Positions 2,384 through 6,727 of a stretch of 21,492 nt of DNA are shown in pieces. The position numbers and the translations under genes are program-made. The stretch lies in the IMG/VR virus record IMGVR_UViG_3300014827_000021, positions 2,377 through 23,868 of that record; one strand, 5' to 3'. The DNA is from a virus. Every line of letters begins with the position of its first letter. Positions within the stretch are counted from its first letter, which is position 1. The notes beneath the pieces were generated by a model that ran no database searches, was not told the origin of the DNA, and saw only the letters and a list, made by a program, of their open reading frames with translations.

Positions 2384-2568
2384 ATCAGGCAAGGGCGAGC
2401 TAAATGTAGTCAAGAAAAGCAGGACAGCCAAAGACGTTCTGCGAGATGTTGAACTATTAACCATGACTAAATCTCCTTTACATTAAATATTAAATTTAGT
2501 TTCTGCAAAAGGCGGAATTCTAAAACGTTAATTTATTCCATTTTGAATGAATGGGGAAAGGGACTTTT

Positions 2569-3612
2569 ATGGAACCATATGAATTTATGCAGAGGCAATC
2601 CCTCCCATACGAGGCAAAGATCATCCATGCCGAACGAATAGCCCATGAGTTTGAAGACTGGGCCATCCAACATGATAAAAACATATGCGTCAGTGTTGGA
2701 GGTCTGGACAGCATCACTCTCTACTATTTTCTCAAGTCGTTGGGAATTGACGCAACACCTGTTTCAGTGTCGATCATTGAGGATAAGAGCAATCAGGAGA
2801 TCCATAAGCAGATTCCCGGCATGGTTTTTCTGAAGCCATATAAGTCAAAGGTTCAAGTTATGCGTGAGTACGGCTTCCCGGTTATTAGCAAGGAAAAGGC
2901 CGCTAAAATTGAAAAACTGCAAATAGTTAATAACCCAAAACAAACCCTAATTCATGCGCTTATGACTGGCGATATGGGCGCACAAGGCAAGTTCCAGCAC
3001 AGTGAAAAACTAAAGCTTCAAGACAAGTGGTTAAGGCTTTTCGGTGGAAATTACGCCGAACACAGACAAGACATTGATTGGTCAGCGCAAATATCAGGCG
3101 GAATCGCACCTTTTAAAGTATCTGCTGAGTGCTGCAAATGGATGAAAGAGAAACCAGCGCAGGATTGGCAAAAAGTGAATAACATGATCCCTTATCTAGG
3201 ACTTATGGCATCTGAGGGAGGACAACGGGAAATGGGATTAACTAAAAATGGTTGTAACTACTTTGGTAAAACAACCATAAGAAGTTGCCCCTTCGCGATA
3301 TTCAGCCGTCAAGATCTACTTCAGTTAGCCATTGATCTGAACGTCCCAGTCCCCAGGATCTATGGCGAGATAGTCAGAGACGCTAATGGCCAGCTTAGGA
3401 CAACTAGAGCGCAAAGGACCGGATGCAGTATGTGCGGGTTCGGTATTCACATTGAGAAGCGTCCGCACAGATTCGATCGACTTCGAGAGGATAATCTCAA
3501 AGAGTGGCATTTCTGGATGTACACGATGGGATGGGGAAAGGTCCTGGACTATATTGGTGTTGGTTGGGAAGACATGGTTGTGGAGTATACGCAAACTGAA
3601 ATGTTTGCATGA
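2569..3612 (+). CDS. PP-loop ATPase, PAPS-reductase-like phage protein
   Basis: This protein (347 residues from ATG 2569) belongs to the PP-loop adenine nucleotide alpha-hydrolase superfamily that includes PAPS/APS reductase (CysH) and DndC. The PP-loop reads VSVGGLDSITLYYFL at residues 41-55, against canonical SGGxDS. A CC pair at residues 188-189 and CSMC at 286-289 resemble the cysteines that hold the 4Fe-4S cluster in APS reductases; C229 and C240 are additional. A start at 2551 is possible, but GGGAAAGGGA at 2554-2563 is well placed for ATG 2569. Its stop overlaps the methyltransferase start (ATGA), so the two are translationally linked. Such genes are frequent in phages, beside DNA modification genes, with unproven substrate. 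A role in sulfur or nucleotide chemistry on DNA is speculation. Confidence 0.85.
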   Translation: MEPYEFMQRQSLPYEAKIIHAERIAHEFEDWAIQHDKNICVSVGGLDSITLYYFLKSLGIDATPVSVSIIEDKSNQEIHKQIPGMVFLKPYKSKVQVMREYGFPVISKEKAAKIEKLQIVNNPKQTLIHALMTGDMGAQGKFQHSEKLKLQDKWLRLFGGNYAEHRQDIDWSAQISGGIAPFKVSAECCKWMKEKPAQDWQKVNNMIPYLGLMASEGGQREMGLTKNGCNYFGKTTIRSCPFAIFSRQDLLQLAIDLNVPVPRIYGEIVRDANGQLRTTRAQRTGCSMCGFGIHIEKRPHRFDRLREDNLKEWHFWMYTMGWGKVLDYIGVGWEDMVVEYTQTEMFA

Positions 3613-5072
3613 AGGGTCAAATATTGCATCTGACTAGAGAAATAATAGTTGATTCCTTCGCAGGAGGTGGAGGAGCAAGCACAGGTATCTCCCTTGCAAT
3701 CGGTCGCTCCGTAGATATCGCTATCAATCATGATCCCGAAGCAATAGCAATGCATATGGCAAACCATCCAGACACCGTCCATTATTGTGAATCTGTTTGG
3801 GAAGTTGATCCGAGAAAGGCCACAAAAGGCCAGCCAGTAGCGCTCTTTTGGTTAAGTCCAGATTGCAAACACTTCAGCAAGGCTAAGGGCGGTAAGCCAG
3901 TAGAAAAAGGAATCAGAGGTCTAGCGTGGATAGCTGTTCGATGGGCGGCTACCGTAAAACCTCGAGTGATTATGCTTGAAAACGTTGAAGAGTTTAAGAC
4001 CTGGTGGCCATTACTGAAAGATGGTATGCCGGATCCAGATAAGAAGGGACGTACTTTCAAGGCATTCATTCATGCACTCGAGAGACAAGGATATCAGGTT
4101 GAACATAAAGAGCTCCGGGCTTGCGATTATGGGGCTCCAACGATACGGAAAAGATTCTTCCTAGTTGCTCGGTGCGATGACCAACCAATAACATGGCCAA
4201 AACCTACTCATGGGGATCCCAAAAGCCCAGAAGTTAAGGCCGGAATATTAAAACCATGGCGAACAGCTGCAGAGATCATCGATTGGTCGTTACCTTGCCC
4301 ATCAATCTTCGAGAGAAAAAGGCCCTTGGTAGAGAACACTATGAAACGGATTGCCCGGGGAATTCAGAAGTTTGTCATGGAGAACCCAGATCCATTCATT
4401 ATTAAGGTGAATCATCATGGAGATCAGTTCAGGGGTCAATCGACAAGCGATCCACTTCAAACTATTACTACTAAAAACGGCTGGGGAATAGTGGCACCAA
4501 CACTGATCCAGTATCACTCAGAAACCGCGAACCACGAAGCAAGAGGACAGTGCTTAGATAAGCCGATCATGACGCTTGACACATCTCCTAGATACGGCCT
4601 GGTAACGAGCTTCCTCACTAAGTTTTACGGCACCAATACTGGTCAATCACTCAATAAGCCCCTTCAAACAGTAACGGCCGGCGGGAATCACTTTGGAGAA
4701 GTCAGAGCCTTCTTAATGCAATACTATGGCTCAAGCATTGGTCAAGAGGTTACGAATCCACTGTTCACAGTCACAACAAAGGATCGATTTGGATTAGTAA
4801 CCGTCCATGGCCAAGATTACCAGATTGTTGATATCGGTATGAGGATGTTAGAACCAAGAGAATTATTCAATGCCCAGGGCTTTCCTCTTAGCTACATTAT
4901 CGATCATGACGTGAATGGTAAGGTACTTTCTAAGTCCACGCAGGTTGCGAGATGTGGAAACGCGGTTCCTCCTCCATTCGCTGAGCATCTGGTTAGAGCA
5001 AATTTACCTGAGCTATGCAATGGAAAGGGAACTGGCAAAGCAATGGATCTGAGGCAATTAGCTATCTTCTAA
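3609..5072 (+). CDS. DNA (cytosine-5-)-methyltransferase
   Basis: This 487-residue enzyme would transfer a methyl group from S-adenosylmethionine to cytosine C5 in phage DNA. Motif I is DSFAGGGGASTG (residues 15-27). Motif IV is SPDCKHFS with the catalytic C86; the usual PPCQ is PDCK here. Motif VI is ENV (124-126), motif VIII TIRKRFFLVAR (from 178), and motif X GNAVPPP (450-456), in the normal order. Between motifs VIII and X is a target-recognition region of about 265 residues, which holds four imperfect repeats of about 35 residues (roughly 263-400; F-L-x-K/Q-Y ... GQS ... PLQTVT ... G-L-V). It overlaps the PP-loop gene by ATGA and is followed 37 bases later by a Vsr-like nuclease. The target sequence cannot be read from the protein. 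Likely role: protection from host restriction. Confidence 0.93.
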   Translation: MKGQILHLTREIIVDSFAGGGGASTGISLAIGRSVDIAINHDPEAIAMHMANHPDTVHYCESVWEVDPRKATKGQPVALFWLSPDCKHFSKAKGGKPVEKGIRGLAWIAVRWAATVKPRVIMLENVEEFKTWWPLLKDGMPDPDKKGRTFKAFIHALERQGYQVEHKELRACDYGAPTIRKRFFLVARCDDQPITWPKPTHGDPKSPEVKAGILKPWRTAAEIIDWSLPCPSIFERKRPLVENTMKRIARGIQKFVMENPDPFIIKVNHHGDQFRGQSTSDPLQTITTKNGWGIVAPTLIQYHSETANHEARGQCLDKPIMTLDTSPRYGLVTSFLTKFYGTNTGQSLNKPLQTVTAGGNHFGEVRAFLMQYYGSSIGQEVTNPLFTVTTKDRFGLVTVHGQDYQIVDIGMRMLEPRELFNAQGFPLSYIIDHDVNGKVLSKSTQVARCGNAVPPPFAEHLVRANLPELCNGKGTGKAMDLRQLAIF

Positions 5073-5109
5073 AAGCGAAATTCAGAAATTGGTGGAAGGA
5101 GTGAACAAA

Positions 5110-5508
5110 ATGAATGAGATTGAAAGACAGTTTATTGAAACATTCGATAACCTCAATGAATTGGGAGTGATTGAAACGTGTTTCAGCCTAGAATCTCAAA
5201 AGTCTATTGGAATTTATAAAGTTGATTTTTTGTATGGAACTTGTGTTATCGAAATAGATGGCCATGAGTACCACAAGACAAAAGAGCAACGCGAACACGA
5301 TTATAAGAGAGAACGGTATTTGATGAAAAAGGGGTATAACGTAATACGGTTCATGGGTACAGAGATTTTTTTAGATCCCATAAAATGTGTTACTGAAGCC
5401 ATTGAATTCGGGGAAGAAGTAACTGAAAGAGACAGGGCCTTCAACTATATTTGCAAGAAAAAAAATATCGAAACCATATGGGGAATACCATTGCTGATTG
5501 AAAATTAG
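5110..5508 (+). CDS. DUF559 / Vsr-like PD-(D/E)XK endonuclease
   Basis: I start this at ATG 5110, eight bases after GGAAGGAG, rather than at the TTG at 5089, giving 132 residues. The centre, KVDFLYGTCVIEIDGHEYH, carries the D...ExD pattern of the DUF559 branch of the Vsr-like restriction-endonuclease fold, followed by the family signature KEQREHDYKRERYLMKKGY and NVIRFMGTEIFLDP. The C-terminal part (ERDRAFNYICKKKN) is unfamiliar. The gene lies directly after a cytosine-5 methyltransferase. In E. coli, Vsr nicks T:G mismatches arising from deaminated 5-methylcytosine and is encoded beside dcm, so a similar pairing is an attractive but untested reading. Other options are a restriction partner or a simple nicking nuclease. 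Stop is TAG at 5506-5508. Confidence 0.8.
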   Translation: MNEIERQFIETFDNLNELGVIETCFSLESQKSIGIYKVDFLYGTCVIEIDGHEYHKTKEQREHDYKRERYLMKKGYNVIRFMGTEIFLDPIKCVTEAIEFGEEVTERDRAFNYICKKKNIETIWGIPLLIEN

Positions 5509-5520
5509 GGGGCGGTCATT

Positions 5521-6318
5521 ATGGCAAGCCCACAGCGCGAAAATGGTTATACCGGAATTGCAAATGAGATACTTGAGAATCTTAGCACAATCTCTCTAAA
5601 TGGTACCCAGTTCAGAATCATCATGGTTGTATTTCGCTTCACTTATGGATTCCAAAGGAAGGAACATGAACTATCAGAATCCTTCCTAGCTAATGCGACA
5701 GGGATACATAAGCAGCAGATCAAAAGGGAGCTTAAAACCTTGCTAGATAAAAACATTCTACTAACGGTTAGGAAAGCTACTTTTGATAAACCAAGAATTA
5801 TCTCTTTCAATAAGGACTATGACAATTGGGCTAATAAGCTAATTAGATCAGAGGTAACTAATAAGATACCAGGTAGCGAAAACGATACGCCTACAGGTAG
5901 CGGATTAGATACCACCCCAGGTAGCGAATTAGATACCCAAGAAAGAAAGGTTCTTAAAGATAACTCTAAAGAAAATATATATATAGTCTTTCATCATTGG
6001 AATTTAAAAAAGATCATCACGCATAAGACCCTAACGGATAAGATCAGTGGCAACATAAACGCAAGGTTTGAGGAAAACTACACGGTCAACGAAATCATTG
6101 AGGCGATTGATAATTACGTCATTATCCTTAATGACAATGAGAAATACTTTTGGAGCTACAAATGGGGCCTGAGTGATTTCCTTATCCGAGGGTTGGATAA
6201 GTTCAAAACTGAGAGCGATCCATTTAGTAACTATGCTAACAAATCAAAACCATCCAAAGGACCAACAACCAACCCAAGTAAAAAAGATTCAAAAAGATTC
6301 GATGGTTTCTATTTATGA
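5521..6318 (+). CDS. Phage replication initiator (replication protein O type)
   Basis: This 265-residue protein looks like the phage replication-O family. Residues 1-95 form the winged-helix DNA-binding domain: [20 protein letters not shown], then [38 protein letters not shown]. The linker (residues 111-139) is built from repeats GS-x-x-DT because the DNA underneath consists of iterons. The C-terminal half ([19 protein letters not shown] ... [18 protein letters not shown]) is the domain that in relatives contacts the replicative helicase or loader. No phage helicase or loader gene follows, so the host enzyme is probably recruited. The gene begins 12 bases after the DUF559 stop behind GGGGGCGG, and ends at TGA just before the AGGAGGT site of ssb. 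Confidence 0.87.
5851..5937 (+). repeat. Iteron array inside the initiator gene
   Basis: Three copies of a 20-bp repeat, consensus CAGGTAGCGAATTAGATACC, start at 5870, 5894 and 5918, exactly 24 bases apart. The first of these is diverged in its right half (AAACGATACG). A fourth, weaker copy (about 16 of 20 matches) is at 5851-5870. The 24-base period is a multiple of three, so the reading frame stays open. Iterons inside the initiator gene are how lambda O marks its origin. Confidence 0.8.
5851..6020. other. Probable phage replication origin (iterons plus AT-rich segment)
   Basis: The iterons are followed directly by an A/T-rich stretch (about 5938-6020) that includes AAAATATATATATAG at 5972-5986 and AATTTAAAAAAG at about 6000. 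Initiator-binding repeats next to an easily melted region, all within the initiator gene, is the lambdoid origin layout. Origin function is inferred from that arrangement. Confidence 0.65.
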
Positions 6319-6331
6319 GGAGGTAATAAAA

Positions 6332-6727
6332 TTGTTAAATCGAGTAATTTTGATCGGCCGGTTAACGAAAGATCCTGAACTTCGATACACACCAAATGGT
6401 GTTGCCGTAACAAACTTCACACTGGCAGTGGATCGCAACTTCAAAAACGCTCAAGGCGAAAAGGAAACAGACTTCTTTTCATGTTCAGTGTTCAAGCAAC
6501 TTGCCGAACTATGCGCCAACTATCTGGCCAAAGGGAAAATGGCCTCCATCGATGGACGGATACAGATCAGGACGTACAACGATAAGGATGGCCAAAAGCA
6601 TTGGGTTACGGAAATCATTGGTGAGAGTGTTCAGTTTCTAAGTCCAAAAGGCAATGATTCCACTGCAGCCGGCGGTGATCATCCGCTAGGTCATGAAGTT
6701 AATTTATCGGACGACATCCCATTTTGA
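6332..6727 (+). CDS. ssb: Single-stranded DNA-binding protein
   Basis: SSB coats single-stranded DNA during replication and recombination and recruits partner proteins. Translation most likely starts at TTG 6332, seven bases after the strong site AGGAGGT (6318-6324), giving 131 residues beginning [19 protein letters not shown]. The OB-fold signature continues with [30 protein letters not shown] and [16 protein letters not shown]. The acidic tail ends LSDDIPF, the conserved SSB tip that docks partner proteins. Longer readings upstream of 6332 would overlap the initiator gene by over 100 bases and are not needed. It belongs with recT and the initiator. Confidence 0.96.

Follow-up and report, generated by a model that had tools for sequence, protein, structure and literature searches.

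RESULTS

The initiator gene and its surroundings

The window, meaning the whole 21,492-nucleotide stretch analysed here, covers positions 2,377 to 23,868 of IMG/VR record IMGVR_UViG_3300014827_000021, a 23,868-base genome fragment from a phage whose host is probably a Clostridia-type bacterium. The locus comprises a lambda O type replication initiator gene, the iterons and A/T-rich segment that lie within it and the gene that follows:

5521..6318, + strand: replication initiator gene, lambda O type, 265 amino acids (PF04492, TIGR01610, PHROG "replication initiation O-like", AlphaFold2 model)
5853..5870, + strand: iteron 1, GGTAACTAATAAGATACC; out of frame relative to the other three, 14/18 dyad symmetric
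5872..5889, + strand: iteron 2, GGTAGCGAAAACGATACG; 10/18 dyad matches
5896..5913, + strand: iteron 3, GGTAGCGGATTAGATACC; 12/18 dyad matches
5920..5937, + strand: iteron 4, GGTAGCGAATTAGATACC; 14/18 dyad matches
5938..6020, + strand: A/T-rich segment, putative DNA unwinding element, with AAAGAAA motifs and ATATATATAG (A/T content, AAAGAAA enrichment, synonymous conservation)
6332..6727, + strand: single-strand DNA-binding protein (SSB) gene, TTG start (PF00436, E 2e-36); next downstream, in the position of lambda's P

The initiator, hereafter O, matches PF04492 over residues 6–103 (E 1.3e-20; 74 bits, cut-off 28.7), TIGR01610 (53.9 bits, cut-off 45.5) and several PHROGs of the "replication initiation O-like" kind. 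In an AlphaFold2 model that is usable for two domains only (mean pLDDT 64, domains mostly 70–85), an N-terminal winged helix (residues 12–96) is followed by a linker predicted to be disordered (residues 109–147, pLDDT <50) and a helical C-terminal domain (residues 147–239). The disordered stretch is encoded by positions 5845–5961, and the repeats fall inside it.

Searches with the C-domain returned weak PHROG matches, no Pfam family (the sole match, to Phg_2220_C, was below threshold and came from one relative; E 0.018) and no tblastn match among 50,697 phage records, and PDB sequence searches with O or its C-domain gave no significant match. The C-terminal DnaB_2 domain (PF07261) of TP901-1 type Rep proteins had no match in O or elsewhere in the contig, in a search that detected the TP901-1 control. 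A weak fold match to Bacillus subtilis DnaD (E 4.8e-3) derives from the low-confidence model and is a lead only. The tail of O (6292–6318) resembles those of the O proteins of three related loci (L003, L004 and L007), a group for which no loader or helicase of its own was found and whose tail is K-[YFR]-[YFDE]-[DEKN]-x-FYL-like; it is possible that this shared tail is a docking peptide for a host protein. L002 and L016, the latter with a DnaC-like loader, have O proteins with different tails.

Upstream of O, two ORFs in different frames (1642–1812 and 1838–2383) form a possible MBL-fold (YycJ-like) gene, which several related phages have ahead of O; the division into two ORFs may reflect a frameshift, an assembly error or a split gene. 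The interval from 2551 to 5508 encodes a PAPS-reductase-like protein, a cytosine-C5 DNA methyltransferase and a DUF559-type protein; annotated Bacillus-type relatives show no such insertion at the corresponding place. Rfam gave no match in the window.

The repeat is a DNA feature

The first-pass annotation, which was made from the sequence alone, had described three 20-bp repeats at exact 24-bp steps, a weaker fourth copy and an eight-residue protein repeat. The three repeats start at 5869, 5893 and 5917, with AGGTAGCG cores at 5871, 5895 and 5919, and do encode such a repeat (GSENDTPT / GSGLDTTP / GSELDTQE). The fourth copy is also present (AGGTAACTAATAAGATACC at 5852), but it is not weaker in symmetry, as it ties with the last copy as the most symmetric (14/18). 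Left unstated was that this copy, the first of the four, lies 19 bp upstream of copy 2 and is out of frame. Because 19 bp is not a whole number of codons, copy 1 is translated in a different frame (VTNKIP); what it shares with the other copies is DNA sequence and not protein sequence. The natural repeat unit is an 18-bp hyphenated palindrome of the GGTAGCG..TTAGATACC type, present in four copies at steps of 19, 24 and 24 bp.

The 19-24-24 arrangement scores 89 at 5852, compared with a whole-window mean of 28.6 (sd 5.1) and a best minus-strand score of 65. It ranks top of the 2197 spacing combinations tested within the gene, and its score is reached in 0/5000 protein-preserving codon shuffles. 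The out-of-frame iteron 1 matches iterons 2–4 at 43/54 positions (null mean 27.3; 0/5000 codon shuffles), and the window has no further copy of the motif GGTANCNAAWWNGATACC when up to two mismatches are allowed (0.12 expected by chance). Because copy 1 is out of frame and none of the 5000 shuffles equals the observed match, the iteron repeat is a DNA feature, more than a protein repeat alone.

The A/T-rich segment shows synonymous conservation

The roughly 80 bp of A/T-rich DNA that had been noted after the repeats corresponds to 5940–6019; no other 80-mer of the window has as high an A/T content (77.5%). In a set of 29 loci, lambda among them, the 60-bp stretch that follows the final iteron is purine-biased, A/T-richer than both the gene and its codon shuffles, and enriched over those shuffles in AAAGAAA. 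Among the six closest genes, identical residues are encoded by identical codons at a frequency of 0.88–0.91 in the A/T-rich segment, 0.77 in the iterons, and 0.51 and 0.53 in the two O domains, and the gene's best 14-residue window for codon identity falls in the A/T-rich segment. Judged by codon identity, the synonymous sites of this segment are under DNA-level constraint. GC skew, which had been suggested as a check, is positive throughout the window with no sign change at 5853–6020; it is uninformative here because the window is a fragment and probably has nearly all its genes on one strand.

Related O genes keep the spacing and change the letters

Related loci were drawn from IMG/VR, Desulfosporosinus genomes and phage records. 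An automated scan found significant iteron arrays in about 30 O genes, and for most of these 0/300 codon shuffles reach the observed value. The core spacing is mostly 19-24-24 or 19-23-24, with 27-19-23-24 also seen, and in most loci the iterons are dyad-symmetric 18-mers. Their letters are quite different from those of the window; L005, for example, has 19-24-24 spacing with letters different again. We defined the 19-24-24 family once the first relatives had been viewed; the lambda annotation and the loci found afterwards are independent of that choice and fit it. Iterons in the linker at conserved spacing, with some of the steps out of frame, in so many relatives support the proposal that a lambda-type origin lies within the O gene. 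The first-pass annotation had also named a finding that would count against it, namely relatives with a repetitive linker but no conserved DNA repeats; the opposite was found, though the letters differ. In the literature that we covered, from which the review of Weigel and Seitz (2006) was absent, we found no description of conserved 19-24-24 spacing outside enterobacterial phages.

The automated scan found no arrays in short-linker O genes of helicase type (L008, L010–L012, L035, L045, L047 and L050–L052), which lie adjacent to a DnaB helicase gene, so not every member of this O family has its origin here. Three loci (L017, L018 and L019) have GGTAGCG-type iterons like those of the window, yet their C-domains look unrelated to its C-domain; by sequence comparison, this suggests exchange of the C-domain behind a conserved block of N-domain and origin.

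Iterons covary with the DNA-reading parts of O

Among 27 distinct O domains, iteron half-site distance correlates with N-domain distance (r 0.54) in a Mantel-type test that removes shared ancestry only partly. With the rest of the N-domain controlled, covariation peaks at residues 25–34, 64–74 (the recognition helix) and 79–95 (the wing), with its minimum in the core helix (35–49). The best segment is reached in 0/2000 permutations, and the same holds for the pre-specified residues 62–71.

Examples of the pairings are as follows. RGQ[IV]DREL pairs with half-site GTCCTC, KSQ (in O proteins of the KSQ[IV]DREL type) with GTACTC, HKQQ with GGTAGC or GGTATC (the latter listed for the window and L019), RRQVQ or KRQVQ with GGTGTC, xRxIKKEL with GGGGAA, and TVGRVI with GGGGAC. 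The sites of the window fit the recognition-helix type common to L019, L017 and L018.

Partner genes differ among relatives

As the first-pass annotation had claimed, no lambda P adjoins O: a profile search of the contig that detected the lambda control gave no PF06992 match. Neither a DnaC/IstB-type loader nor a DnaB-type helicase had a match in the 23.9-kb contig, a genome fragment, and the 40-kb (L003) and 82-kb (L004) relatives likewise gave no match to P, a DnaC-type loader, a DnaB helicase or the DnaB_2/DnaD domain. Elsewhere this origin plan occurs together with a DnaC-like loader adjoining O (L016), long primase-helicase-like proteins (L019 and L030) or DnaB helicases.

The idea that iterons occur only where a helicase gene is absent was ruled out, since a DnaB helicase and 19-24-24 iterons occur together in L036, L041, L043 and L048. 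By contrast, in loci with similar N-domains and a short linker, the helicase is present and iterons are absent.

DISCUSSION

Our computational analyses lead us to conclude that this Gram-positive-type phage very probably has a lambda-type origin at 5853–6020 to which its own O protein binds. The segment would serve as the theta-replication origin, with O dimers using their N-terminal winged helix to bind the four 18-bp palindromic iterons and contacting DNA with the recognition helix (about residues 64–74) and the wing (about residues 79–95). The bound iterons would be packed into an O-some, and stress from the array would open the adjoining A/T-rich segment. The C-domain, carried on a flexible linker that is encoded by the iteron DNA itself, would then bring the host replicative helicase machinery, and the phage SSB from the next gene would coat the opened strand.

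Could the sites have another function? Palindromic 18-mers are the usual kind of site for dimeric winged-helix regulators and the fold search returns MarR-type regulators, as might be expected if the sites form an autoregulatory operator for O or are bound by another phage regulator. However, the four sites lie inside coding sequence, the promoter scan found a signal near the gene and sites that is no better than chance, the A/T-rich flank is conserved with its synonymous sites frozen, and the proven lambda origin has the same plan (PMC7466680); we consider an operator very unlikely. Slightly less likely still is that the repeats are a feature of the protein only, a flexible GSxxDTxP linker that grew by slippage and whose DNA similarity is a by-product. 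Although copies 2–4 are in frame, with 24 bp equal to 8 codons, and in-frame 24-bp steps also occur in several relatives, copy 1 resembles the others in DNA while its protein differs (VTNKIP versus GSELDT), and the 19- and 23-bp steps of the Desulfosporosinus relatives shift copies between frames. Moreover, protein constraint does not demand palindromic repeats, and protein-preserving shuffles never reach the DNA similarity.

The least probable of these alternatives is that the array is a decaying remnant and that replication now starts elsewhere. In its favour, the window leaves the far end of a fragmentary genome out of view, and iteron 2 has one off-consensus end (GATACG). Against decay, all four copies are kept, they match a recognition-helix type shared with three other loci, and synonymous constraint is strong downstream of the iterons.

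If 5853–6020 is such an origin, how is helicase delivered? Because P, a DnaC-type loader and DnaB were found neither in the contig nor in the relatives noted above, we infer that helicase recruitment must use the C-terminal domain of O together with host factors. One tentative suggestion, which we think somewhat more likely to be wrong than right, is that O proteins in this clade bring in the helicase machinery of the host directly, with no P, DnaC-type loader or phage helicase, through the Pfam-less C-domain and its shared FYL-like tail. If so, the lambda-type origin would be a fixed 19-24-24 platform for different helicase-delivery modules: none, DnaC-like, DnaB or primase-helicase. A stand-alone initiator paired with SSB would not be new as such, as this layout is known in P335 phages.

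Our findings carry the origin type known from textbook accounts of lambda over to phages of Clostridia relatives. Three points go beyond the first-pass annotation: the geometry stays fixed as the letters change, the iterons covary with the DNA-reading surface, and the helicase-delivery partner is exchangeable. A conserved spacing plan, combined with changing iteron letters and partner genes, points to O-some geometry as the constrained feature. In addition, the 27 distinct O domains, each paired with its own iterons, provide a testable recognition table for an initiator for which PDB searches returned no solved structure.

One of the closest known systems is lambda itself, whose inverted-repeat iterons bind O dimers and drive opening of the adjoining A/T-rich region (PMC5043065, PMC7466680). 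Like the candidate origin described here, ori-lambda (NC_001416, 39034–39118) lies in the linker-coding part of an O-type gene and has four 18-bp hyphenated palindromes, followed on the distal side by an A/T-rich, purine-biased flank with AAAGAAA. The spacing of lambda's annotated iterons, which our scan recovers, is 20-24-23 rather than 19-24-24, and both total 67 bp. The iteron letters differ (ATCCCTCAAAACGAGGGA in lambda, GGTAGCGAATTAGATACC in the window), no sequence kinship is seen between the two C-domains, and the helicase loader P adjoins O in lambda whereas SSB occupies that place in the window. The lambda/P22-like E. coli phage N7 and Hafnia phage Pocitis76 also have O-gene iterons, but the first gap is 20 rather than 19 (20-24-24), the iterons are TGTCTCNAAGTTAGAGAC, and a gene for a primosomal or ATP-binding protein follows. 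The same scan gave 21-21-21 for phi80 and 22-22-22 for Gifsy-2 and no array in PAJU2 or TP901-1 rep.

Outside the enterobacterial phages, Caldibacillus phage CBP1 (MF595878) resembles the window in having 19-24-24(-24) O-gene iterons, SSB two genes downstream of O and a 37-kb genome that gave no match to P, a DnaC-type loader or DnaB; it differs in its iteron letters (GTAAGCAAAAATGCTGAC), one extra copy and its C-domain. Desulfosporosinus prophages (NZ_NADJ01000038, NZ_JAMHFY010000001) and IMG/VR relatives encode O proteins that are 53–60% identical to that of the window and have the same C-domain, with a nearly identical A/T-rich segment and five or more iterons. Their iterons are instead GGGGAAC/GGGGACT..CCCC (GGGGAACAATCATTCCCC or GGGGACTAAAAAGTCCCC), and the spacing is 27-19-23-24, in which the steps of 19 and 23 are out of frame.

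A direct-repeat origin inside the initiator gene is also found in rep of the P335 phages TP901-1 and Tuc2009 and in SPP1 gene 38 with oriL (PMC8965321, PMC6316719), and P335 lactococcal phages can have an initiator that stands alone, in many cases accompanied by SSB (PMC8965321, which cites Weigel and Seitz 2006). TP901-1 Rep differs in having no sequence similarity to O of the window, a DnaB_2/DnaD domain and no lambda-type four-iteron spacing in the scan. By every feature that could be tested but one, the origin described here would work like the lambda-type O-gene origins and groups with them; the exception, a neighbouring P gene, is a mark of the O–P module and not of the origin.
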